Shown piece after piece: positions 48,807-64,000 of a stretch of DNA of 64,000 nucleotides. Below the pieces are notes generated by a model, which saw nothing but the letters and a program-made list of their open reading frames with translations, was not told where the DNA came from and did no database searches. Origin of the DNA: Agapetus fuscipes (lineage: Eukaryota; Arthropoda; Insecta; Trichoptera; Glossosomatidae); NCBI GenBank assembly GCA_951799405.1, contig OX637343.1, forward strand, positions 4,588,001 through 4,652,000. Reading direction: 5' to 3'. Position numbers and translations under genes: made by a program. Positions within the stretch are counted from its first letter, which is position 1. Each line of letters begins with the position of its first letter.

Positions 48807-49302
48807 CAGTGTTGCCACCTTAGCCCTTTTGGGGCTAGATCTAGCTCTTTTTACTATAGGTGAACTCGTTGTTTAATGATTTAGCCCGAAAAGGGCTATC
48901 TAGCCCTTTTTATTTACTTAAAAATATTGTACGAAAATCTGAAATTAGCGCCATGATAACATCGAACTTTCGCGATTTTTGTCATATATATTGTTTTTTT
49001 TTTTAGTAGATACCATTTGTTCGATTATGGCAACATATCTATGGCAACTAAATGATTCTAAATGGAAAATTTGTTAATTTTAGTTTGTAAAATAACAAAT
49101 ATTTTTAATTTTTGAACCTAATTTTGAAAAAAATTATTGTGATTCAAACTAAAAAATAAATACATAAGTAATTGAAATCATTAGTCCAGGTGTTTTTTTA
49201 GCCTTTTTTTACATCAACTCTTTTTGTGCTCCTTTTAGCCCGATCTAGCCCTTTTTAGCTTCTTTTTTAGCCCCCATTACTAAAACTAAGGTGGCAACAC
49301 TG
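48807..49302. mobile_element. 496-bp hAT MITE with 8-bp TSD
   Basis: The termini CAGTGTTGCCACCTTAG and CTAAGGTGGCAACACTG are inverted repeats. GCTGCCAG flanks both sides (48,799-48,806 and 49,303-49,310) and is single in copy A (23,373-23,380). The interior repeats TTAGCCC/GGGCTA motifs. No coding capacity. Confidence 0.9.
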
Positions 49303-49335
49303 GCTGCCAGACCACATGCCAGACTTGGCCAGGCT

Positions 49336-49683
49336 CATGCCTAGGAAACTTAGGGCATATTTTGGTTCCTGGCAACATTATTTGGGTAGTTATTCACAGT
49401 CACGGTTTCTCCGACCAATCAGAGCTCCGATTGGGTCACATGTCTGGTCACGAGGTATACCGCCAGTCCCCATGTGGCCGCCATTTGTGTTTTTGCAATC
49501 TACGTAAGGAGCGCTTCCCTTTTGAAAATTCTTTAAATTTTGTGATTTGGCAATTTACAATGTCCAGTCGCCGTTGTTGTGTACCTCATTGTTTTAATAC
49601 GGAGTTAAAGTAATCGGATTCGTTTCTATTTCACGATTAGTAATGTACTTACTGGAAAAAACAAAAAGTTTGGGTGAACTGTA
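49336..49683 (+). repeat. Left long TIR, containing a decayed THAP exon 1
   Basis: Aligns in inverted orientation with 61,261-61,643 through the terminal 40 bases, the ACCAATCAGAGCT block, and the exon ATG MSSRRCCVPHCFNT (49,560-49,601) with its following intron sequence (AATGTACTTACTGGA). The copy runs into a stop (ELK-stop) and its splice donor is altered, so this end is not a second functional first exon. Confidence 0.85.
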
Positions 49684-49759
49684 CTTTTTGTATGAAATGA
49701 AGGACTGTACTTTTTATATGAAATAAAGAACTGTTTTTTTAGAAAAGTTGTACTTTATA

Positions 49760-49836
49760 AGTGTGAAATGTGTCTTCTTGTGGGAATACATTTAGTGTAA
49801 ATCTTAAATGTGATATATCTTTTCAACATCAGATTA
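49760..49836 (+). repeat. Z-module 3' fragment
   Basis: GTGGGAATACATTTAGTGTA and the end CAACATCAGATTATGG; 5' part absent. Confidence 0.6.
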
Positions 49837-49994
49837 TGGACATAATTATTAAATTTGAATTGAGCAAGTCACAATGTATATATTATGATAGAAAAATAAG
49901 TAATAACACATTAAAAAAGAAGAAAATGTATTTATAACATAAATGTAATTTATAATCAATTGTTGTAATGTAATTAAGTTGTGCTATTTGAAGT

Positions 49995-50490
49995 TTTTTT
50001 TTTAAATAAAATATGTTTTACCATCTTCAATTGTTTTCATTTACTTCGCCAATTGAGTAGAACAGTAATAATATAGAATGATATTATGATGATAATTTAG
50101 TATTGTCTAGACACGTAGGGTAGTTACTGGCGCTACCCATCGTTTCATATATAAATAATACTACTTGGTTACATTTTTTTTGTTCTAAGACCGCCCTCTA
50201 TAAACCTACAATACTCTATGGCCAGGCTCACCACAGATAGAGAGCGGTCTCGGAACAAAAAAAATGTAATCATGTTGTACGTACTATGGCACTATACTTA
50301 TATATGTGAGACGACGGACAGCGCCACCAAGTACCCCGTGTCTAGACAGTACTAAGCCGTCATAATATTATCCCATATTATTAGTCTGACGCGTATTATA
50401 ATTCTACGCCACTTGTTCCATTTATTATTCTTCTCAGTTGGAGTAAGTAAATAAAAACACAAAAAGATGGTAAACATATTTTATTCAAAA
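49995..50490. repeat. Foldback MITE, about 200-bp arms
   Basis: AAATAAAATATGTTTTACCATC (left) pairs with GATGGTAAACATATTTTATT (right, about 50,465-50,486). Arms continue through GTCTAGACACG and TTACATTTTTTTTGTTC / GAACAAAAAAAATGTAA to a short loop near 50,230. Imperfect but continuous. Confidence 0.82.
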
Positions 50491-51327
50491 AATCTTAAAA
50501 AAGCACTAAATGACATAATAACAATTTATTATAAATAGGTATATTTTCATATTTTTTATTGTTACGCGTAATATTTATTTCTACACATTTCAATTATTAT
50601 ACTATATAAACATGAAAGTGAAATGCTTAGGTACTTAAAATTTAATAATTATGTGCAAGGACGTTTTCCTCCCTCAATAAAATTAACAAATGATGTGTGA
50701 TAGCATACTTTTCAACATTTAAGTTAGACAATGACAACTTTACCTGAATAAAAAATTAAAAGGACAATTTTAAGTACTCATCAAAAATACAAAACATTAT
50801 AAATATGAGGTGATGCTTGTCAACAAGGGATTTTATAATGGGGCACCCTCTAATTTTGTTCCATGGCATAAAATAAGTATTCTACCAAAATTTAAAAAAC
50901 ACCTACTTTCAGCGGTCACTACCTTTGGAATACTTGTTCAAACTTATAATTCTGTGAAATGATAATACATACGATATTTTTTGTGTTTTAACTTTAAATC
51001 CTGATATCAACCCCTAAAAGTCTACAAAAAAAAATAGTTTAAGGCGTGTTATAAAGCTAAATCTGCCATTTTTGTTTCTTACACTTTATGGTCTTAGCAA
51101 AATAGTTACAGTAATGAAAAAAATCAAGCATGTTTATTATTTTTTTATCTTAATTATAAAGCTTGAACAAAATATATAACTTAAGAATTGACACCACAAA
51201 AAATATTTAAAAAAACGCGTTTTTTTACATTTTTAGTTTGTTTTTCGTGTGCTGTATTTTGATTTTTTTTTTGCTTTTTAATTACAGAACTATACATTGT
51301 TTAGGTTCCGTACTTAACATTTTTTTT
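50491..51327. other. AT-rich, no gene seen
   Basis: Inside the P-like element, 3' of the gene; nothing supported. Confidence 0.35.
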
Positions 51328-51445
51328 ATAATGTCAATAGTTTTTGAGTAAATATGGAAAAACTGTGTTCTTTGATTTAATTAAAATTTAATTCATTTAG
51401 TAGTTTCAGTTTTTCCATATTTACTCAAAAACTATTGACATTATA
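51328..51445. repeat. Hairpin, 40-base perfect arms
   Basis: AATGTCAATAGTTTTTGAGT and the reverse ACTCAAAAACTATTGACATT enclose a 38-base spacer. It directly precedes an ACTAGGGGC block (51,448-51,490). Confidence 0.85.
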
Positions 51446-51658
51446 AAAAAACTAGGGGCTCCGCCCCTGGCTGCTACACAGCCCAACCCCTTAACATTAG
51501 GCAATGTGTATATTGCACATAGTTTTCTTGCTTTAAAACTTGTTATATTAGAGAACATGTAAAATAAAAAATGCAGTTTTTGTAAAAAGTCTTTTAACAA
51601 AAGAAAGAAAACTAAAAGCAAATAAGAAAACGAAACCGGTTTTAATTTGCTCCATCAT

Positions 51659-51730
51659 AGTCATTGACTTATATGTTGGTATGAGGCTGACCACCCAAAC
51701 TGTTAAAAAATGTTGTACTTTGCCAATGCC
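51659..51730 (+). repeat. Z-module 5' fragment
   Basis: CATTGACTTATATGTTGGTA and GACCACCCAAACTGTTAAAA; cut at the start of the 95-bp satellite. Confidence 0.65.
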
Positions 51731-51734
51731 AGTA

Positions 51735-53420
51735 GTGACAGTATGATGAATTGCAACATACAGAAAACTCATTATCATTGGAGATAAATAAACTCAAATG
51801 ATGTAAAGACAATATTGAACACAAGAAAAGTGACAGTATGATGAATTGCAACATACAGATAACTCATTATCATTGGAGATAAAGAAACTCAAATGATGTA
51901 AAGACAATATTAAACACATGAAAAGTGACAGCATTATTATTTGAGACATACAGAAAACTCATTATCATTGGAGATAAAGAAACTCAAATGATGTAAAGAC
52001 AATATTAAACACAAGAAAAGTGACAGTATGATGAATTGCAACATACAAAAACTCATTATCATTGGAGATAAAGAAACTCAAATGATGTAAAGACAATATT
52101 GAACACAAGAAAAGTGACAGTATGATGAATTGCAACATACAAAAACTCATTATCATCAGAGATAAAGAAACTCAAATGATGTAAAGACAATATTAAACAC
52201 AAGAAAAGTGACAGTATGATGAATTGCAACATACAAAAAACTCATTATCATTGGAGATAAAGAAACTCAAATGATGTAAAGACAATATTGAACACAAGAA
52301 AAGTGACAGTACCTATGATGAATTGCAATATACAAAAAACTCATTATCATCAGAGATAAAGAAACTCAAATGATGTAAAGACAATATTAAACACAAGAAA
52401 AGTGACAGTATGATGAATTGCAACATACAAAAAACTCATTATCATTGGAGATAAAGAAACTCAAATGATGTAAAGACAATATTAAACACATGAAAAGTGA
52501 CAGCATTATTATTTGAGACATACAGATAACTCATTATCATTGGAGATAAAGAAACTCAAATGATGTAAAGACAATATTAAACACATGAAAAGTGACAGCA
52601 TTATTATTTGAGACATACAGAAAACTCATTATCATTGGAGATAAAGAAACTCAAATGATGTAAAGACAATATTAAACACAAGAAAAGTGACAGTATGATG
52701 AATTGCAACATACAAAAACTCATTATCATTGGAGATAAAGAAACTCAAATGATGTAAAGACAATATTGAACACAAGAAAAGTGACAGTATGATGAATTGC
52801 AACATACAAAAAAACTCATTATCATCAGAGATAAAGAAACTCAAATGATGTAAAGACAATATTGAACACAAGAAAAGTGACAGTATGATGAATTGCAACA
52901 TACAAAAAACTCATTATCATCAGAGATAAAGAAACTCAAATGATGTAAAGACAATATTAAACACAAGAAAAGTGACAGTATGATGAATTGCAACATACAA
53001 AAAACTCATTATCATTGGAGATAAAGAAACTCAAATGATGTAAAGACAATATTAAACACATGAAAAGTGACAGCATTATTATTTGAGACATACAGAAAAC
53101 TCATTATCATTGGAGATAAAGAAACTCAAATGATGTAAAGACAATATTAAACACATGAAAAGTGACAGCATTATTATTTGAGACATACAGAAAACTCATT
53201 ATCATTGGAGATAAAGAAACTCAAATGATGAAAAGACAATATTAAACACAAGAAAAGTGACAGCATTATTATTTGAAACATACAGAAAACTCATTATCAT
53301 CAGAGATAAAGAAACTCAAATGATGTCAAGACCATATTAAACATAAGAAAAGTGACAGTATGATGAATCGCAACATACAGAAAACTCATTATCATTGGAG
53401 ATAAATTAACCCAAATGATA
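51735..53420. repeat. 95-bp satellite, about 18 copies
   Basis: The start word GACAGTATGATGAATTGC recurs at 51,737, 51,832, 52,022 and 52,116 and onward with 94-96-bp spacing. Two unit types alternate irregularly: GTATGATGAATTGCAACATA and GCATTATTATTTGAGACATA. Both are followed by ACTCATTATCATTGGAGATA and CTCAAATGATGTAAAGACAA. Some units have ATCAGAG instead of ATTGGAG. Minus-strand open frames through it are by-products. Confidence 0.92.
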
Positions 53421-53897
53421 TAGTTAATTTAAAATACAAAAGAATTTCAGTATTATGAATTTGAGAAAAAAAATTAAAATACAGAAAAGTCATCATCATT
53501 GGAGATGATAAATAACAAAATTAACTATCAATGGGAAAACAACAAAAATATAAAATATTCATTATTTGAACATACAGTAACTCAAATAAAATATTTTTTT
53601 CTTCATACTCCTATATTGCTAAATAATAAGTTTCCATATCAACAATGCACACAATAAGGGGTCAGTACTTGAAAAGCTCTTCTACCATAGAATAAATGAA
53701 GCATTATCTCAAGGGTCATCAGAAATCTGTAAATACTTGCGCAGACATCTATGTATGTTGGCGAATACACATAGTATGAAGAAGAATATACTGACATACA
53801 TGAAGAACTCAAACTATGAAGAAGTATATACTGACATACATGAAGAACTCAAACCATTAAGAAAATATATTTGAAACTCTTCCTGCCTTTTCATGAA
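53421..53897. other. Decayed satellite and AT-rich spacer
   Basis: Degenerate repeat units continue to about 53,600, then a short direct repeat (GAAGAATATACTGACATACA) near 53,780-53,850. Confidence 0.5.
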
Positions 53898-54030
53898 CTA
53901 ATCTAGTCTAAGTTGCAAAGATTTGTTACATTGGGGATTCACATTATATGCATTCTCACAAGCAGACACATACAAGTTCGCGCTTGCACATGCTGTATGT
54001 GAATCTACAACATAAAAAACCAAAGAAATG
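53898..54030 (-). repeat. Z-module variant, partial
   Basis: TCTAGTCTAAGTTGCAAAGA, GGGGATTCACATTATATGC and ATGCTGTATGTGAATCTACA; lacks the 5' half. Confidence 0.65.
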
Positions 54031-54103
54031 CAAGCAAAATTGGTAAACGAGAAAAATACATTAAATAATCACTCAGCAGTAACAGAACTGCTTTTGTTAG
54101 GTC

Positions 54104-57100
54104 CTATTTGTGAAATTTTTTATGCTTGGCAAATTTTAGATATCTCTCCCTAGCTGCCTTTTTTATGATATCACTATCCACTCTGCTGTCTTTGCCTATC
54201 AATACATTCGAGATTTCCTTGCACCATCGGTGCACAACGACGCGAACAATGACATTGATAGTTTGTGTTATAACAGCTTCCTTGTGCTTTTCACACGTCA
54301 AAAAGCTGAAATCAACAATTTTCCTTGCTATAAGTGATATATTTTTTTTTAAATTATTTTTGTGACACTCATCCATAAGATAATTATGAATGAGTGCCTG
54401 CATGCGCTGAAACGTCGCCTTCATGGCTTTAGATGGATAAACAAGCCATCTTCGGCCAGGATGATACTCTCTCGCTGTTATTAAATCATGGCCTTCGCAA
54501 CTAGTATCCAATATAACGGAAGAACAGATTTTACAGTTTTTAAAAACATTTACCTTTAATTTTTTTGCAATAAAACCGGCGACGAAATCTGCTGCGTTAC
54601 TGTGGAGATCTGAATCTTCACCAACAAGCAGAGATCTTTCATCCAATGATGAGATATCTTTGTTCGTTTGTGAAGAAGCAGATTCAACTGGTGCTGATGG
54701 CTCATTTTTTAATAACAAACGAAGATTTTGGAGAGTATCACCTTCTTGCTCTTCGCAATTCATCCCCACCGCTCTGATTGAGGTCAGATTGTTAACTAAT
54801 AAGGTTTTATAACTCCCCTCAAAGTCAGAGACACTGGGAGCTACATTTCTCCAGCCCTGACTTCGAATTGCACCGAAGAAATTTTCTAAGGGATCCTGAT
54901 TGAATCTCCGTAAGAATATTCTCTTCATTCCTAGGTCTAAGAGCTTTTCAGAAATACATTTAAATACCTTTATTGTGTGGATCCAGTTATACAAACACGG
55001 AGTTGATGCTTTCCCTCCCACATACTCCATGGTGCTTAATGTTTTTAGGGAATTATGCCAGAACTCGAAATGGAAGGATTTCTTAGTCACGGGACACCGA
55101 AACTCCTTGCCGTGCTCTTTTGGGCTGCCACAATTAATCGAATCGAACAATTCATCAAAAAAGAGAAGCAAATCGGCAGTCTCTGCAGCTTCATCTGGGA
55201 GAAGATGTGTTCCTAAAAGAATTGTAACTTAAATCAGTTTTTTTAAAGTGCAAAAACATTTCTTTTCCTAAACTTCTTTAATTTCTTTTCACTTATTTTA
55301 AAATAAAAACATTTTTGATTATATTTTGACATCAGGTATATAATAAAACTCTTTAAAACTAAAAGAGAAATGATGGAAAATGATTGTACTATATAAAAAA
55401 AGTAGTTTAGAAAAGAAACTTGGTTATCATTTTGTACTTTTTAAAAATATTTTTTCAGCGTATTATTAGAAATCATCCAAATTTAAATTATTAAATCTTA
55501 AAAATAAGAAAATTAAGTCTTAAAAATAAGAAAATTTATACATCAAAATGTTAAGAAAAATATTTTCACTGACTAGCGTATTTACTCCTGAAATAATGTT
55601 TATGATGTATATTTGTATACTCTAAGTTCCAAAGATCTATTGGCATGCTAGTTCAAGCTTACACATGCTGCATGAACTTAAAAAATAAACGAAACCTCAC
55701 ATAAAGATTTAAGTTTTTACATGCCAAGATTTGATGGGTTCAGCCTCATACCAACTATGAAAAAAACTAAACTATCAAATAGTGTTGCAAAAATAAAAGT
55801 AAATCACATAGTAGTGTTGTTAAAATGATGGATATATATATATATAAAACTCATCCAAGTAACAAAGAAAACAAGAACTACCTGAATCTGAACATGCATG
55901 CATATAGTGTAAGTGTGATTAATTATAAACAAGTATATACTCACTGGCCATAAGGTACATGAGGGCTGCAACTCTATGGCTGAACACTTGCGTACAGTAT
56001 TTCACTCTCATTTTAGGTATTCTATCTGGTACAACGTGCAGATCAGTAAGCTTTGGCAAGACTCGCGCTTTAGTAGCGCCAACATCTATTAAATATAGGT
56101 CTTGAATATGTTGCCATTTTGCTACTCTGCTTTTATTGTTCTCTCCATAAAATATCAAATCTTTTGTTAGAAGATTATTGCGAATACCTTTCATAAGATG
56201 AGGGGGGTCAAATAAATGCCACATTTTTTTGCCATTTACTTCAAAATACTGACCCTTCCATTCTTTTCCCTCTCTTAAGTATGAAGCTTTTGTATCTTCA
56301 GTGAGCTGCTTTATTGCGCTTTCGTTTACTGCACTTTGGTCACAGATGGTTGTAATGACTCGCAAGCCTAAAAAATAAGAAAATAAAATTTTGTCAAGTC
56401 ATAAACATCTATAATATAATATAAAAATAAATAACATTTTAAAACACATAAATATACCTGTGCAGCGTAAAGCATTGATCATGTCCTTAATCATGAACAT
56501 GAGATCTGGTTTCTTACACCCACCTTTGTGAAAGGTATAACCCACGGGCTGCCTATATGTCCGAGATATTCCTGTGACCATAAAAACTAGAACGTGATCA
56601 GCAAAGTTCTGGGTTCTTTTGTATCCGAAATCTTCAAAGCCTTCAATGAGGTCTTTATTTTCGTTATAATGAAGATGAGGGGTTATGCTCATTTCATCAA
56701 ACAATAGGCTACAATACCTTTCTGACACATTCATAGTTTTAACGGTCTCGGCCAAATGTTCCAAGATTAAATCATTTATTCCAGGACTAATCGGGACTCT
56801 CTGTAACAAGTTTACAAGTGTTTTGGCAGCTGGGAGAGTGAACAGCTTGTACATCATCCGATAGGCCTTCGGACTGTATTTATATAAACTGAGAGCCAAA
56901 ATTTTTTCATCTAAAGTGAACCTCCTCCCTTTGGGTTTCTTAGATGACTGAGTGATCTGCATCGACGTAAACAATTTAGCCGCAACAGACATATTTTTAG
57001 TCACAACCGTGTCAGACAAAATCATTTTTGTTGCAGAATTCAGTCTCTGTTTGTAGCTTTTAGCTCTAACTTCCTGGCGTTTTGCAATTTTTTTCATGCG

Positions 57101-60100
57101 CATGGCTTGTTCATACAGAATTTTAGCTTTTGGCGTTAAAAAAACTGCTTTTGAGACTCCAACCATGGATAACATACTCTTTTTTTCTGAAATAGAAACA
57201 TTAAATACCATTACATACAAATTACTGTACTATTGAGTTGTATACAACCAAAGGCGGCAATCTAGGAGTTCTCTAAAAAAATGAGATGAATATATAAGTT
57301 ACCTGTTTCCAAGTCCACTATTGTCTTTTAACAGTGACTAATGAATTGACGACTTAAATTTTCATTAAGGGACGAGTAAGGGACCCTTATTGTATGGGTA
57401 TTATTCTGTCATCCTATGTCTGCTATATCTTGAATAAGTTTGTCAATGGTTACTTCTAAATTCCGCCATCGCCTACATTCAAAATTTATATAGATCATTT
57501 TTTTTAAAACGGTTCCATGTTGAGACAGACAGTGGACTGATATGAAAATACAGAAGACATTTTCAGTTTCCATGTATTTATGTCACTCTTGAAAAAAATT
57601 CTAAATTGCCACCTTAGATTCTACAAAACTCAATTATATACCACATCATTGCATACAATAGTAAGATTTTTAGCAGAAAGAACAACTTACGTTTAGATGT
57701 TGCATTTGGAAACAATCCTAGAAGAAAAATATTAATTAAAAGTTTTGTAACTATACATTATATGTTCAAGGAAATTCATAGGATAAAGATTATCATACTT
57801 CTGGGAGTCATGGAAGTTGTTTTTCTACCAATATTTTTTCTTAAACCAAGAGCTGGACCTGCAACAAAATAAAAAATATTACTTTTTTCTTGTAAATGAA
57901 TTAAACACTAAAGAAAAACTACAATTGCAATTCACATCACATTTTACTTTCGCCTCAAAGGGCGTCTTCAGAACAGAAAAAAAGTGAATTGAAAACTGTG
58001 CTTTTAATTTAATATATACATATTTTTTAAATATTGACTAGCCTGCCTAATCATACTACACACGATTACGGCATTCCAGTCTTAAAGTCCAGCTTTGCCA
58101 ACACACGTTGCTCAAGGTCCATGAGAACTGACAAAAAATATATATAGTGGACAGTTATATGGAAGAATCTCAGGCCAGCTCGTGATACTTCCTATTGTAT
58201 TGCAGATGCCTAAGTATTAATCCTGCTCATTCAGCATTCTGCTATTCTCTGTTTTTCTGGTGATAGGTTATTATGCTTGCTTTTAGAAATTTAAACAAAA
58301 CAGACGCAAATACCCTCTCCTTTTTTTTATGAGTTTTAACCATTTAACTGCGGGTGTCACGCATAGGCGTCAAGTGTAAACTTGCACACAGTGCAGCTGT
58401 CAATCATAGACGTCATCCAACTTCTAACTTATCCCTGACATTTGTGTTAAAGAATTAAAAAATTTGCAAGAGAAAAAAGCTAAACCTTTGTGATTGTTGT
58501 TCTTGAATAAGTAATACATGTGACTGTGCACATAGTTTGTTCACAAATGTCGTCAATTAATTAAGGTAGGAAACCATAAGTAAAAATGGGCTAGAAAAAG
58601 TATTCCGTAATGGGCTATTCATACAGCCAGAATATTAAGAAGCAAAAAAGTTAATAAGCAATAGAATTTCACTGTGTGAACCACCAAACCCTAGAAAACA
58701 TTAAAAAATACTACTCCATTAAATTTTGAGCAGTACAATTTACAAGATGCATTTTTGCAAATTTATATTTTTAAGTACACTAAAAACTGCACGTATTGAA
58801 CTGATTATATTACCTTTAGGAGTACTCCATTCAACTTGCAGGTTTTCACTGTTAGACGTCCCAGCGATGCTCTCTAAAATATAAACTTAGATTACTAACC
58901 TTACAAATGAATAAGAGAAAACTATTATTCTTAAATTTAAAAAAAAAACACAGTTCCAATTCACTTTCTCTTTATTTATTTTGCATACTTTAACGTTTTC
59001 AACTCAAAAGGCATCCTCGGAAGCAGTGACTGCTGGGTGAAAACGTTAAAGCATACTTAATAAATAAAAGAAAAAGTGAATTAAAACTGAGTGTTCTTTT
59101 AAATAAATACAATATAATTATTCTTTATGTTAACACATTAACTTACTTTTTTTTTTGTATATTTATTATAAATTACAAACACTTCCCACCCTCAGACTAT
59201 CATCAGGTAAACACATGATTTTTTTTTAAACTTCAAGTTTAGCTGATGTGGTCTGAGGACCAAAAGCATTAGTAATTTATAATCAACACAAAAAGTGGGA
59301 GTAAAACAGTGTTTAAATAATGATTTCTTTAAGTCATTTGTAAGAATAATAACATTTTTTTTACAGTGTAAATACACAAGGGATAAAAATAATATTGTAA
59401 AATAATTTAAATCATGGATATCCTGACCATTTTTTTGATCACAACTTGTAAAGGGTATTCATTGGCTAGTGTTTATTTAGTAACATCATTATTCTGTTTT
59501 CCTGAAAATTTGCCTCTTCTCATGGACTAACTGCCAACCTCAGTCTAGACTTTCCTTGGTTTAAATAGTATTTATATAATTATATAATATACCTTCAACA
59601 CTTCCTGAGATGGAAGAATCTTCGCAAATATTTTTTTCAATGTTTCTTGGTATTGTATCATTATAATAACGTTTTCGGCTCCCTGCAGCTGAAAAAATCA
59701 AAAAGATAAAACACCCCATACAAATGTATTAATAACCATACTGAAGTTTTGATAAAATGTTAACATAAAAAATTGGGTTGATGCCTTCCATAAACCGTTA
59801 ATGGTGATCTGTTATTTATTGGTTCGGTTGGTCACTTACTACTTGAGGAAGTTGACGGTCTACAAATTTCAGCCGTCGTGGTCACATACACTTCAGCTTC
59901 TGCAGTTGGAGGAACTGAAACAAGTATAACAACAATCAGCAACTATTGGGTGTCCTGTGAAATGATCTAAATTTGTGGTTATAAGTTGGTCCTCACACTT
60001 GGTAAATAGGATACACAATAGGACTAACTTTTTGCAGGATAACTTACCACTTGAGGAAGTTGACGGTCTACAAATTTCAGCCGTCGTGGTCACATACACT

Positions 60101-61383
60101 TCAGCTTCTGCAGTTGGAGGAACTGAAACAAGTATAACAACAATCAGCAACTATTGGGTGTCCTGTGAAATGATGTGGTTATAAGTTGGTCGAGCATAGT
60201 CTGGGCAGCTTGAATGTCTTGACGCTCTACAGCACAAGCATAGTCTGGGCAGCTTGAACGTCTTGACGCGCTACAGCACGAGCATAGTCTGGGCAGCTTG
60301 AATGTCTTGACGCTCTACAGCACGAGCATAGTCTGGGCAGCTTGAACGTCTTGACGCGCTACAGCACGAGCATAGTCTGGGCAGCTTGAATGTCTTGACG
60401 CGCTACAGCACGAGCATAGTCTGGGCAGCTTGAACGTCTTGACGCGCTACAGCACGAGCATAGTCTGGGCAGCTTGAACGTCTTGACGCGCTACAGCACG
60501 AGCATAGTCTGGGCAGCTTGAATGTCTTGACGCGCTACAGCACGAGCATAGTCTGGGCAGCTTGAACGTCTTGACGCGCTACAGCACGACCATAGTCTGG
60601 GCAGCTAGAATGTCTTGACGCTCTACAGCACGAGCATAGTCTGGGCAGCTTGAACGTCTTGACGCGCTACAGCACGAGCATAGTCTGGGTAGCTTGAACG
60701 TCTTGACGCGCTACAGCACGAGCATAGTCTGGGCAGCTTGAACGTCTTGACGCGCTACAGCACGAGCATAGTCTGGGCAGCTTGAGCGTCTTGACGGGCT
60801 ATTAGCTTTGGACAGTACATATTAACTGTAGTCAATTTTATCAGCATGCCTTGAATGGATTCATAGGAATAATTGTGCAACTTATATACAAACTTAGGTT
60901 CCTTGACTATTGGTTGGTATGAGGCTGACCACCAATACTGTAAAAAATTGTTCACTTTGCCAATGTCACCCCTGTTGCAAAAATTACATCCAACACGTCT
61001 TAAGTATTCAAAATGAAATAATTTTACATACCTGGTAAAAATAATGTAGGCATAGCAGCCGGAAACATTTTTAAAGAGGGCTTTCTCAAATATTTTATTT
61101 CAAAATGACGACCGCACACGCGCCGGTTGAAATGTACAAATTGAGGATCATGCCTCAAAATCGGACCTCCAATGGCTTGAACCCATTTAATAAACCTTTC
61201 GCGATCTTTTATGGGACAGGGAAAACAGTGCAACTTTTCTAAAAACAAAAAAAACACATTTACAGTTCATCCAAACTTTTCGCTTTATCCAGTAAGTACA
61301 TTACGTATCGTTAAATAAAAACGTATCATTACTCTACCTTTCGTGTTAAAGCAATGTGGTACACAACAACGGCGACTAGACAT
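54104..61383 (-). CDS. P-element/THAP9-like transposase, 11 exons, 968 codons, intact
   Basis: Predicted exons (minus): 61,383-61,338; 61,238-61,032; 60,122-60,048; 59,914-59,840; 59,688-59,593; 58,873-58,814; 57,858-57,799; 57,717-57,691; 57,186-56,458; 56,367-55,945; 55,212-54,104. Every intron is GT-AG and phase 1, and the sum is 2,907 bases with no stop. Exons 1-2 form a C2CH THAP DNA-binding domain: CCVPHC, then LHCFPCP, VCGRHF and AMPTLFLPG. A basic, Ser/Thr-rich linker follows, encoded by six small exons. The catalytic region has LLFDEMS (Asp near 369), TTICDQSAVN (Asp near 468) and DPLENFFGAIR (acidic residues near 706-709), the expected RNase H-like pattern with the GTP-binding insertion region between. 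The C-terminal end is the P-element C domain. It would bind subterminal sites and cut the element ends. Exons 3 and 4 are a tandem duplicate. Transcript support is unavailable. Confidence 0.88.
55620..55757 (-). repeat. Degenerate Z module in intron 10
   Basis: CTAAGTTCCAAAGATCTATT, TTCAAGCTTACACATGCTGC and TTCAGCCTCATACCAACTAT; large central deletion. Confidence 0.5.
57945..57990 (-). repeat. Hammerhead-core-like words in intron 7
   Basis: The minus strand reads CTGAAGACGCCCTTTGAGGCG then AAAGTAAAA. The CTGAAGA-stem-GAAA order is present (GCC/GGC stem II), but stem I does not pair, so at most a decayed Penelope-type terminal repeat. Confidence 0.35.
58945..59330. repeat. Two adjacent foldbacks with decayed hammerhead-like words, intron 5
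   Basis: The first foldback (58,950-59,095) has arms AATTCACTTTCTCTTTATTT and TTAATAAATAAAAG/AAAAGTGAATT around TTAACGTTTTCAACTC. The second (about 59,150-59,330) has arms with ATTATAAATTACAAACACTT and its counterpart TAGTAATTTATAAT. The words CTGATGT, GGTCTGAGGACC and AAAAGC occur in ribozyme order in the second. The layout parallels the foldback at 27,238-27,540. Confidence 0.5.
59838..60190 (-). repeat. Tandem duplication of a 75-base coding exon and flanking intron
   Basis: Exon copies 59,840-59,914 and 60,048-60,122 are 208 bases apart and identical apart from the last base. Each has an acceptor TTGTTTCAG and a GTAAGT donor. The encoded 25 residues begin VPPTAEAEVYVTTTAEICRP. Because 75 is divisible by three and both introns are phase 1, either or both exons keep the frame. 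Confidence 0.85.
60191..60802. repeat. 44-bp minisatellite, about 14 copies, intron 2
   Basis: The unit starts CGAGCATAGTCTGGGCAGCT and continues TGAACGTCTTGACGCGCTAC plus AGCA. Units alternate between GAATGTC/GACGCTC and GAACGTC/GACGCGC forms, hinting at an 88-bp higher-order unit in the left part. It is GC-rich compared with the surrounding intron. Confidence 0.92.
60899..60975 (+). repeat. Z-module 5' fragment, intron 2
   Basis: TTCCTTGACTATTGGTTGGT through CACTTTGCCAATGTCACCCC, then truncated. Confidence 0.7.
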
Positions 61384-61643
61384 TGTAAAACGAAAAATAA
61401 AAACAAATTTAAAAGAAATATCAAAACGCGACCGTTCCTTGCGCAAAATTTTCAAATGTACGAAAACAGAAATGGCGCTGCATCTCGCAATCTCGACGAT
61501 CTCGACCAATCAGATACGACGTATGACGTCATTACTATGTCGTCATTTTATGAAGCTCTGATTGGTCACAAAACAGCACAGCGACAGTAAGTACCATTTT
61601 AGTGTTGCCGGAACAAAAATATGCCCTAAGTTTCCTAGGCATG
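61261..61643 (-). repeat. Right long TIR, containing functional exon 1 and promoter
   Basis: Holds the transposase start region. On the minus strand ATGACGTCATACGTCGTATC lies about 140-160 bases upstream of the ATG, and two ACCAATCAGA words (CCAAT-type) flank it. These may form the promoter. Confidence 0.8.
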
Positions 61644-61753
61644 AGGCTCACTTCAAACTGGTCTTGCGACTCGGATGCAATTCTTTTGTTTGAAGCTCGG
61701 TGGGTCAGTCAAAGTTATTAGTTTTTGTAATTTTGTGCTTTGTGCAAGTTACA

Positions 61754-64000
61754 ATGGACGTAGTTGTGAAGTCTGAGAAGGAGCCGGTCTCGGAGGATAT
61801 GGATGCACAACTAGAGCACTTACATGAACAAATCGACATTGAAGAGAGCGATGTGAAGCAAGAGAGACTGGCTCGTGAGAAGGAATGGGAAGCTGAGGAC
61901 ATAGTAATGGGAAATATAAAGAATGAGGACTTCTTGGAGGAATGCCGCGTGCTTGTGGACAGAATCGACATCGCGCGGTATTCAAATGATCCAGCCAGGT
62001 TGAAATATGTGTGCCATGCCTGCAGCTACAAGGTGAATCAAAAGAAACCCTTGAGGATCCATCAGTTGTTCAGTTGCTGCGAGCTGGAGCACACTGGGAC
62101 AAGCAAGACCCACAATCATAGACACACAACCTCAGAGAGCAGGCCATCCACCTCAACAGATCAACATAAAGCAAACACTCACAATAAATGTGAACAGGAA
62201 AATGCAAAAAAAACTGAAAACACAGAATTGGCCATTGCGAAAAGCACTCCCTATGATCGCAGTGAAGGTAGTTACAAATCAGTGTGGAGATCTAACATAC
62301 AGAAACACAAACTGGGACACACTGCGAAGAAACTATTTGCTTGTGACCAGTGTGATTACAAAGCTACACAGTCAGTTAATTTGAAAAAGCATAAAATGAC
62401 ACACTCTGGATATAAACCATTTGCGTGTGATCAGTGTGACTATAAAGCTACGCAGTCAGTTAATTTGAAAAAACATAAAATGACACACTCTGGACACAAA
62501 CCATTTGCTTGTGATCAGTGTGACTATAAAGCTACACAGTCAGTTAATTTGCAAAAGCATAAAATGACACACTCGGGACACAAACCTTATGCGTGTGATC
62601 AGTGTGACTATAAAGGTACAGAGTCAGGTTATTTGAAAAAGCATAAAATGACACACTCTGGACACAAACCATTTGCGTGTAATCAGTGTGACTATAAAGC
62701 TACACAGTCAGTTAATTTGAAAAAACATAAAATCACACACTCTGGACACAAACCATTTGCGTGTGATCAGTGTGACTATAAAGGTACAGAGTCAGGTCAT
62801 TTGAAAAGGCATAAAATGACACACTCTGGAAACAAACCATTTGCGTGTGATCAGTGTGACTATAAAGCTACACAGTCAGTTTATTTGAAAAAGCATAAAA
62901 TGACACACTCTGAACACAAACCATTTGCGTGTGATCAGTGTAATTATAAAGCTGCATTGTTAGGTGGTTTAAAAAAGCATAAAATAACACACTCTGGACA
63001 CAAACCATTTGCGTGTGATCAGTGTAATTACAAATCTAAATTGTTAGGTGATTTAAAAATGCATAAACTGAGACACTCTGGATACAAACCATTTGCGTGT
63101 GATCAGTGTGACTATAAAGCTACACAAGCAAGCACTTTGATTTGTCATAAACTGACACACTCTGGATTCAAACCGTTTGAGTGTGATCAGTGTGACTATA
63201 AAGCTACACAGTCAGCTAATTTGAAAAACCATAAAATGACACACTCTGGACACAAACCATTTGCTTGTGATCAGTGTGATTATAAAGCTACACAGTCAGT
63301 TAATTTGAAAAAGCATAAAATGACACACTCTGGACACAAACCATTTGCGTGTGATCAGTGCCATTATAAAGCTGCATTGTTAGGTTGTTTAAAAAGGCAT
63401 AAACAACGGAGACACTCAGGACACAAACCATTTGCGTGTGATCAGTGTGACTATAAAGCTACACAGTCAGCTAATTTGAAAAACCATAAAATGACACACT
63501 CTGGACACAAACCATTTGCTTGTGATCAGTGCCATTATAAAGCTGCATTGTTAGGTTGTTTAAAAAGGCATAAACAACGGAGACACTCAGGACACAAACC
63601 ATTTGCGTGTGATCAGTGTGACTATAAAGCTACACAGTCAGCTAATTTGAAAAACCATAAAATGACACACTCTGGACACAAACCATTTGCTTGTGATCAG
63701 TGCCATTATAAAGCTGCATTGTTAGGTTGTTTAAAAAGGCATAAACAACGGAGACACTCAGGACACAAAAAACCATTTGCGTGTGATCAGTGTGACTATA
63801 AAGCTACGCAGTCAATTAATTTGAAAAACCATAAAATGACACACTCTGGACACAAATCGTTTGCGTGTGATCAGTGTGACTATAAAGCTACGCAGTCAGT
63901 TAATTTGAAAAACCATAAAATGACACACTTTGGACACAAACCATTTGCTTGTGATCAGTGTGATTATAAAGCTACACAGTCAGTTTATTTGAAAAAGCAT
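61754..64000 (+). CDS. C2H2 zinc-finger protein, at least 20 fingers (copy B, partial)
   Basis: Starts MDVVVKSEKEPVSEDM like copy A and stays open to the right edge (about 749 codons seen). The acidic N-terminus, the lone YVCHACSYKVNQKKPLRIHQ motif and the linker are nearly identical to copy A. The finger array differs in number and order and begins at about 62,332. Fingers 13-18 include three perfect repeats of a two-finger unit (CHYKAALLGCLKRHKQRRH alternating with CDYKATQSANLKNHKMTH) at an exact 171-bp spacing (63,361, 63,532, 63,703). One linker has an extra Lys codon (near 63,770). The 12.3-kb transposon end lies about 110 bp upstream of the ATG, so its transcription may start from the transposon end or be lost. 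Confidence 0.88.
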   Translation, partial: MDVVVKSEKEPVSEDMDAQLEHLHEQIDIEESDVKQERLAREKEWEAEDIVMGNIKNEDFLEECRVLVDRIDIARYSNDPARLKYVCHACSYKVNQKKPLRIHQLFSCCELEHTGTSKTHNHRHTTSESRPSTSTDQHKANTHNKCEQENAKKTENTELAIAKSTPYDRSEGSYKSVWRSNIQKHKLGHTAKKLFACDQCDYKATQSVNLKKHKMTHSGYKPFACDQCDYKATQSVNLKKHKMTHSGHKPFACDQCDYKATQSVNLQKHKMTHSGHKPYACDQCDYKGTESGYLKKHKMTHSGHKPFACNQCDYKATQSVNLKKHKITHSGHKPFACDQCDYKGTESGHLKRHKMTHSGNKPFACDQCDYKATQSVYLKKHKMTHSEHKPFACDQCNYKAALLGGLKKHKITHSGHKPFACDQCNYKSKLLGDLKMHKLRHSGYKPFACDQCDYKATQASTLICHKLTHSGFKPFECDQCDYKATQSANLKNHKMTHSGHKPFACDQCDYKATQSVNLKKHKMTHSGHKPFACDQCHYKAALLGCLKRHKQRRHSGHKPFACDQCDYKATQSANLKNHKMTHSGHKPFACDQCHYKAALLGCLKRHKQRRHSGHKPFACDQCDYKATQSANLKNHKMTHSGHKPFACDQCHYKAALLGCLKRHKQRRHSGHKKPFACDQCDYKATQSINLKNHKMTHSGHKSFACDQCDYKATQSVNLKNHKMTHFGHKPFACDQCDYKATQSVYLKKH

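Follow-up and report, generated by a model that had tools for sequence, protein, structure and literature searches.

Two tail-to-tail P-type insertions very probably underlie an apparent 12.3-kb transposon in Agapetus fuscipes

A 64,000-nucleotide stretch of the Agapetus fuscipes genome (C11:4588001-4652000, contig OX637343.1 of assembly GCA_951799405.1; hereafter the window) contains, between positions 49336 and 61643, what a first-pass annotation had described as one 12.3-kb P-type transposon with terminal inverted repeats (TIRs) of about 350 bp that include exon 1, and with a target duplication of 5-7 bp. Comparison with related copies in the genome (618 Mb, 148 contigs searched) indicates that this segment almost certainly holds two P-type insertions, related yet separate, which lie tail to tail and were taken for a single transposon: an 885-bp non-autonomous element (49336..50220, plus strand), delimited by the ends of related copies and by its homology to the larger element, and a gene-bearing P/THAP9-type element of 11,412 bp (50232..61643, minus strand, with its 5' end at 61643 and its 3' end at 50232), whose ends match those of a copy on C6.

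Each of the two elements is flanked by an 8-bp target duplication of its own. The sequence GCCAGGCT is found to the left (49328..49335) and to the right (50221..50228) of the 885-bp element, and AGGCTCAC borders the gene-bearing element at 50224..50231 and 61644..61651. Both duplications are perfect and stand at ends that were fixed independently by copies elsewhere. At the 893-bp offset that belongs to the 885-bp element, the only offset for which this control was run, 8-bp identity was seen at random window positions in 39/200,000 draws. Outside the two outer limits, by contrast, the 8 bp next to 49336 and the 8 bp next to 61643 agree at 0/8 positions in register, and the proposed limits 49336-61643 do not hold as those of one element. 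The sequence AGGCT does stand on both outer sides; it appears as a duplication because the right copy of GCCAGGCT and the left copy of AGGCTCAC overlap by 5 bp within the site GCCAGGCTCAC, and thus reflects two 8-bp duplications that are shifted against each other. An alternative with displaced ends and a 7-bp duplication, AGGCTCA, was considered and dropped, since duplications of 8 bp suit the ends fixed by other copies. Two P-superfamily cut-and-paste elements would accordingly have landed independently at nearly the same spot and in opposite orientation, each duplicating 8 bp of its target. Which element inserted first is not evident from the sequence, since both orders yield the same result. 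The singed-weak allele of Drosophila is a similar double insertion.

The features that had suggested a single element are present. The inverted start CATGCCTAGGAAACTTAGGGCATA is found both at 49336 and at 61643, the arms share 24-base termini, and their inverted homology, which includes the ATG of the THAP exon 1, can be aligned over about 400 bp with a local score of 176.5, compared with a maximum of 69 among 50 random window pairs. The arms are identical, however, at only 308/378 aligned bases (81.5%), as expected from two families, and the element that carries the left arm stops at 50220, well inside the claimed limits. The apparent long TIRs are better described as the related 5' ends of two elements (terminal block, upstream region and exon 1), which would have come to stand in opposite orientation at the outer sides. 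Elsewhere in the genome the left part occurs many times with the same end as here and with its own duplications, and the gene-bearing copy on C6 lacks it. Taken together with the outer flanks and the separate duplications, these observations make one 12.3-kb transposon scarcely credible. That the two ends come from separate insertions, which the annotation had itself named as an outcome that would contradict it, is indicated in the assembly by the two overlapping 8-bp duplications.

A genome-wide search with the left 365 bp returned matches of 99-100% identity in 40/40 cases (the best 40 of 265 candidates), and the copies of the left type (11 loci) lose their match to the window at 50217-50223. 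We examined 35 related loci besides the window, of which 28 allowed scoring of the 5' as well as the 3' end; perfect 8-bp duplications were found in 26/28 of these 885-type copies, with differing flanks and lengths of 863-908 bp. Relative to the C6 element, positions 1-348 of the 885-bp element correspond to the 5' end with exon 1, positions 433-501 to the stretch directly after the stop codon, a piece of the 3' untranslated region, and positions 502-885 to the 3' end. The exon-1-like reading frame (49560..49613, plus strand) starts with ATG and runs for 17 codons before a stop (MSSRRCCVPHCFNTELK). Judged from this homology map, the 885-bp element is an internally deleted, non-autonomous P-type member of a sister family.

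The right 380 bp gave two full matches among the best 40 of 239 candidates, the window itself and C6:2472824-2473203, both at 100% identity; in the same set the remaining matches were partial and reached at most 83% (the next best 83% over 172 bases), except for some short pieces, which reached as much as 96%. The C6 copy (L040) is 11,759 bp long, extends from CATGCC to CACAGAG (read inward), has GGTAGCCA on both sides and contains no 885-bp part.

Several observations weigh against this interpretation. Two of the 28 scored copies (L019 and L030) have no 8-bp duplication, and 7/35 loci (L011, L012, L014, L016, L018, L021 and L023) could not be scored, their 3' end not being found or their sequence being too short. 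The search turned up just two full-length copies with the gene, and the limits of the gene-bearing element are therefore based on two duplications. Furthermore, the copy in the window is short of 13 bp close to its 3' terminus when compared with that on C6, a loss that may disable it.

At two of the 35 other loci, L005 (1136-1501) and L030, the 885-type copy has another P-type end, or an older piece of a P-type element, within about 40 bp. The arrangement resembles that of the window and hints at insertion into relatives or next to them.

The outer sides of the locus are formed by two 5' ends that are identical at 34/35 of their first aligned bases, while stretches further inward agree at 19-33 of 35. 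Two elements that arrived separately could, in principle, now be moving together as a composite unit through these outer 5' ends. P transposase acts on a pair made up of one 5' and one 3' end, and a composite of this kind is at odds with such pairing. At 28/35 loci a 5' end is paired with a 3' end, only such pairs having been scored, and no second copy of the composite was seen among the matches listed. We consider joint movement very improbable and retain two independent insertions.

The likeness of the termini bears on how the 885-bp family is moved. The 3' ends of the two families agree at 86.1% overall, but the 3' terminus of the 885-bp copy in the window matches the gene-bearing element at 31/35 positions with one gap column, compared with 23-30 further in, and in two other copies (L017 and L022) the last 24 bases are those of the C6 element (24/24, compared by eye). 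From these blocks we infer that selection has maintained the ends for use by one type of transposase, which makes movement of the 885-bp family in trans plausible: the 885-bp element, which has no transposase gene, would be moved by the transposase of the 11.4-kb element or by a sister enzyme. Alternatively, the family may be moved solely by another, unseen autonomous element, with the 11.4-kb element as a bystander, a reading that is compatible with two insertions. The agreement of only 81.5% (5') and 86.1% (3') between the ends of the families speaks for it, as do the two full gene-bearing copies set against many 885-type copies and the presence of at least one further lineage (L011 and L012) that shares this 5' terminus and has sequence resembling exon 2. 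It does not account well for terminal blocks that are more alike than the rest. Exon 9 was used to look for other transposase copies (60 match rows from 15 candidates); among the matches listed, complete ones at 100% were found only in the window and on C6, followed by C7 at 93% and by others at no more than 82%, with comparison over 3.2-3.5 kb for three of these (L044-L046). The C7 copy, the nearest other transposase copy, showed neither end within 18.5 kb of retrieved sequence and was rejected as a parent of the 885-bp family. On balance an exclusive unseen source is quite possible, though we lean away from it and continue with mobilisation by the 11.4-kb element or its sister enzyme.

The two loci of the further P-type lineage, L011 and L012, have a 5' terminus almost identical to that of the elements described here, and an identical ten-base sequence, TGGTGACGCG, stands before each of them.

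The true ends of these elements do not resemble one another. With both read inward, the sequence of the 5' end is CATGCCTAGGAAACTTAGGGCATA and that of the 3' end, in the C6 element, CACAGAGTATGTAGGTTTATAGAG, so that the common inverted repeat comprises only CA or CAT (2-3 bases). No 31-bp TIR of the kind found in Drosophila P is present, ungapped comparison giving 4/31 matches in the C6 element and 8/31 in the 885-bp element of the window. Inverted similarity of the ends within 40, 150 and 300 bp was not above chance, being equalled by 33-100% of 300 shuffles, and no subterminal inverted repeat common to both ends was detected beyond what the shuffles contain. We make no claim for a weak direct similarity (GGTACTT..TG.CGCTGT and alike), for which the shuffle shares at 150 bp were 0.05-0.07; in the gene-bearing element the share was also 0.05 at 40 bp. 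Each end block is conserved between diverged families of the same genome. It is rather likely that a P/THAP9 transposase lineage here mobilises elements without inverted-repeat ends, with a 5' block of about 35 bp and a different 3' block of about 24 bp. Such an enzyme would have to recognise a pair of dissimilar ends while placing its joins 8 bp apart. The real surprise is the absence of a common repeat, the opposite of the long TIRs claimed earlier, because Drosophila P, Pdre2 and Galileo all have TIRs. No paper on P elements in Lepidoptera, on P elements without TIRs or on double insertions was evident in the literature searched, which comprised titles and the beginnings of abstracts outside subscription journals and Repbase.

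The transposase gene (54104..61383, minus strand) was modelled with 11 exons at 61383-61338, 61238-61032, 60122-60048, 59914-59840, 59688-59593, 58873-58814, 57858-57799, 57717-57691, 57186-56458, 56367-55945 and 55212-54104. As the annotation had stated, it is free of internal stops, with 968 codons and 10 GT-AG introns, and its product looks complete and matches P transposase. Pfam models for THAP (PF05485), Tnp_P_element (PF12017), the N- and C-terminal parts of TNP-like RNaseH, and the GTP-binding domain (the last three under PF21787, PF21788 and PF21789) were above their cut-offs, PF12017 only barely (23.7 versus 23). A THAP domain, a helix-turn-helix (HTH) domain and an RNaseH domain split by a GTP-binding insertion place the protein in the P/THAP9 superfamily, and the sole solved relative found was the Drosophila P transposase (6p5a, E 9.8e-24). 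By hand count D379, D468 and E709 are the aligned counterparts of D230, D303 and E531 in that enzyme, which are given as its catalytic residues in PMC8230255. In an alignment of 44 database hits with the query, both D are conserved in 45/45 sequences and the E in 39/45, the other 6 having gaps. The closest full-length proteins among the 44 are 37% identical (Ostrinia, Helicoverpa), with up to 48% over about half the length (Plutella), and moth and butterfly proteins make up the majority of the nearest named relatives. A rough FastTree tree gives the window protein a branch to itself, within a group whose local support is 0.80.

Exon 3 and its introns are tandemly duplicated, with two units in the window copy (59840-60122) and three in the C6 copy, at element positions 1742, 1950 and 2162. 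The extra unit (75 bases with splice sites) lies between the two shared ones; by eye, the coding part of this middle unit is clearly different, while the surrounding intron is near-identical to its neighbours. The C6 protein may accordingly be 25 residues longer than that of the window. Intron 2 holds a tandem array of a 44-bp unit (60191..60801, 13.9 units), which appears to be longer in the C6 copy, as suggested by the spacing to exon 3, and a second array, of a 95-bp unit (51734..53419, 17.7 units), lies downstream of the gene within the element. The element also contains an inverted repeat whose 45-bp arms match perfectly and stand 41 bp apart (51321-51451).

Among known systems the nearest for comparison is Drosophila P, whose 5' terminus starts with CATG, as do the 5' ends here. 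The transposases are homologous and share the THAP, HTH, RNaseH and GTP-binding parts. Drosophila P is 2.9 kb long with perfect 31-bp TIRs, which are contacted by the HTH domain in the solved complex, and it too has 8-bp duplications, here present at both window elements, the C6 copy and the 26/28 relatives, as well as internally deleted relatives (PMC7776569). Unlike Drosophila P, the gene-bearing elements have no TIR beyond CA/CAT, are 11.4-11.8 kb long and contain 11 exons and long minisatellites. Zebrafish Pdre2/THAP9 is described with 13-bp TIRs, 8-bp target duplications, internally deleted copies and the terminus CATACCT (PMC10983969); the duplications and the deleted copies are in common, but the terminus here is CATGCCT and the ends have no inverted similarity beyond that of the shuffles. 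Galileo of D. mojavensis, which also has a P-superfamily transposase, has TIRs of 18 to 1,250 bp and 7-bp duplications (PMC3573991). Here the duplication is 8 bp, the true ends have no TIRs, and the long inverted arms, which had given the impression of Galileo-like TIRs, belong to two insertions. Annotated insect P-type transposases (Ostrinia, Helicoverpa, Bicyclus, Photinus, Plutella, Macrosiphum) align over 98-100% of the length at 31-37% identity in eight hits, and identity never exceeds 48% among the 44 hits. The element family is a real P/THAP9-type system with a known kind of transposase, distinguished by its unlike ends.

The 34-base 5' terminus was found at 126 places genome-wide with no more than 2 mismatches, including the two in the window and the one on C6, and the reversed pattern at 0. 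Between the window and C6 copies, 2,907/2,907 coding bases of the window gene model are the same, and outside the repeat arrays 8,287 aligned bp contain 7 substitutions, a number too small for coding versus non-coding divergence to support a claim of selection. Because identity among copies is high, recent activity of the element family is likely, in line with the annotation on this point; the encoded transposase may be active.

The analysis disposes of a mistaken example of a P element whose giant TIRs carry an exon, and illustrates that tail-to-tail insertions into overlapping targets can mimic one element. It leaves a usable system that combines an open P/THAP9-type gene with more than 100 almost identical 5' ends and with exact joins of 8 bp, and the unlike ends offer a natural test of how a P transposase distinguishes its two ends.

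The exon-9 search also brought up C23:4957826-4967195 (in part within L046-L060), which holds 47/60 match rows. Most of them represent one segment, roughly 175-190 bp long and corresponding to query positions 510-697, that recurs every ~175 bp at 72-86% identity; the region is a satellite-like array of transposase coding sequence. In the window, the left-hand neighbour of the 885-bp element (about 48809-49300) appears by eye to be an unrelated element with the inverted ends GTGTTGCCACCTTAG ... CTAAGGTGGCAACAC. On the other side, a C2H2 zinc-finger reading frame (61754-64000) begins 111 bp from the 5' end of the gene-bearing element, head to head with the transposase gene; it comprises about 20 fingers, in the form of 84-bp units (84% matching), and continues past the window edge.
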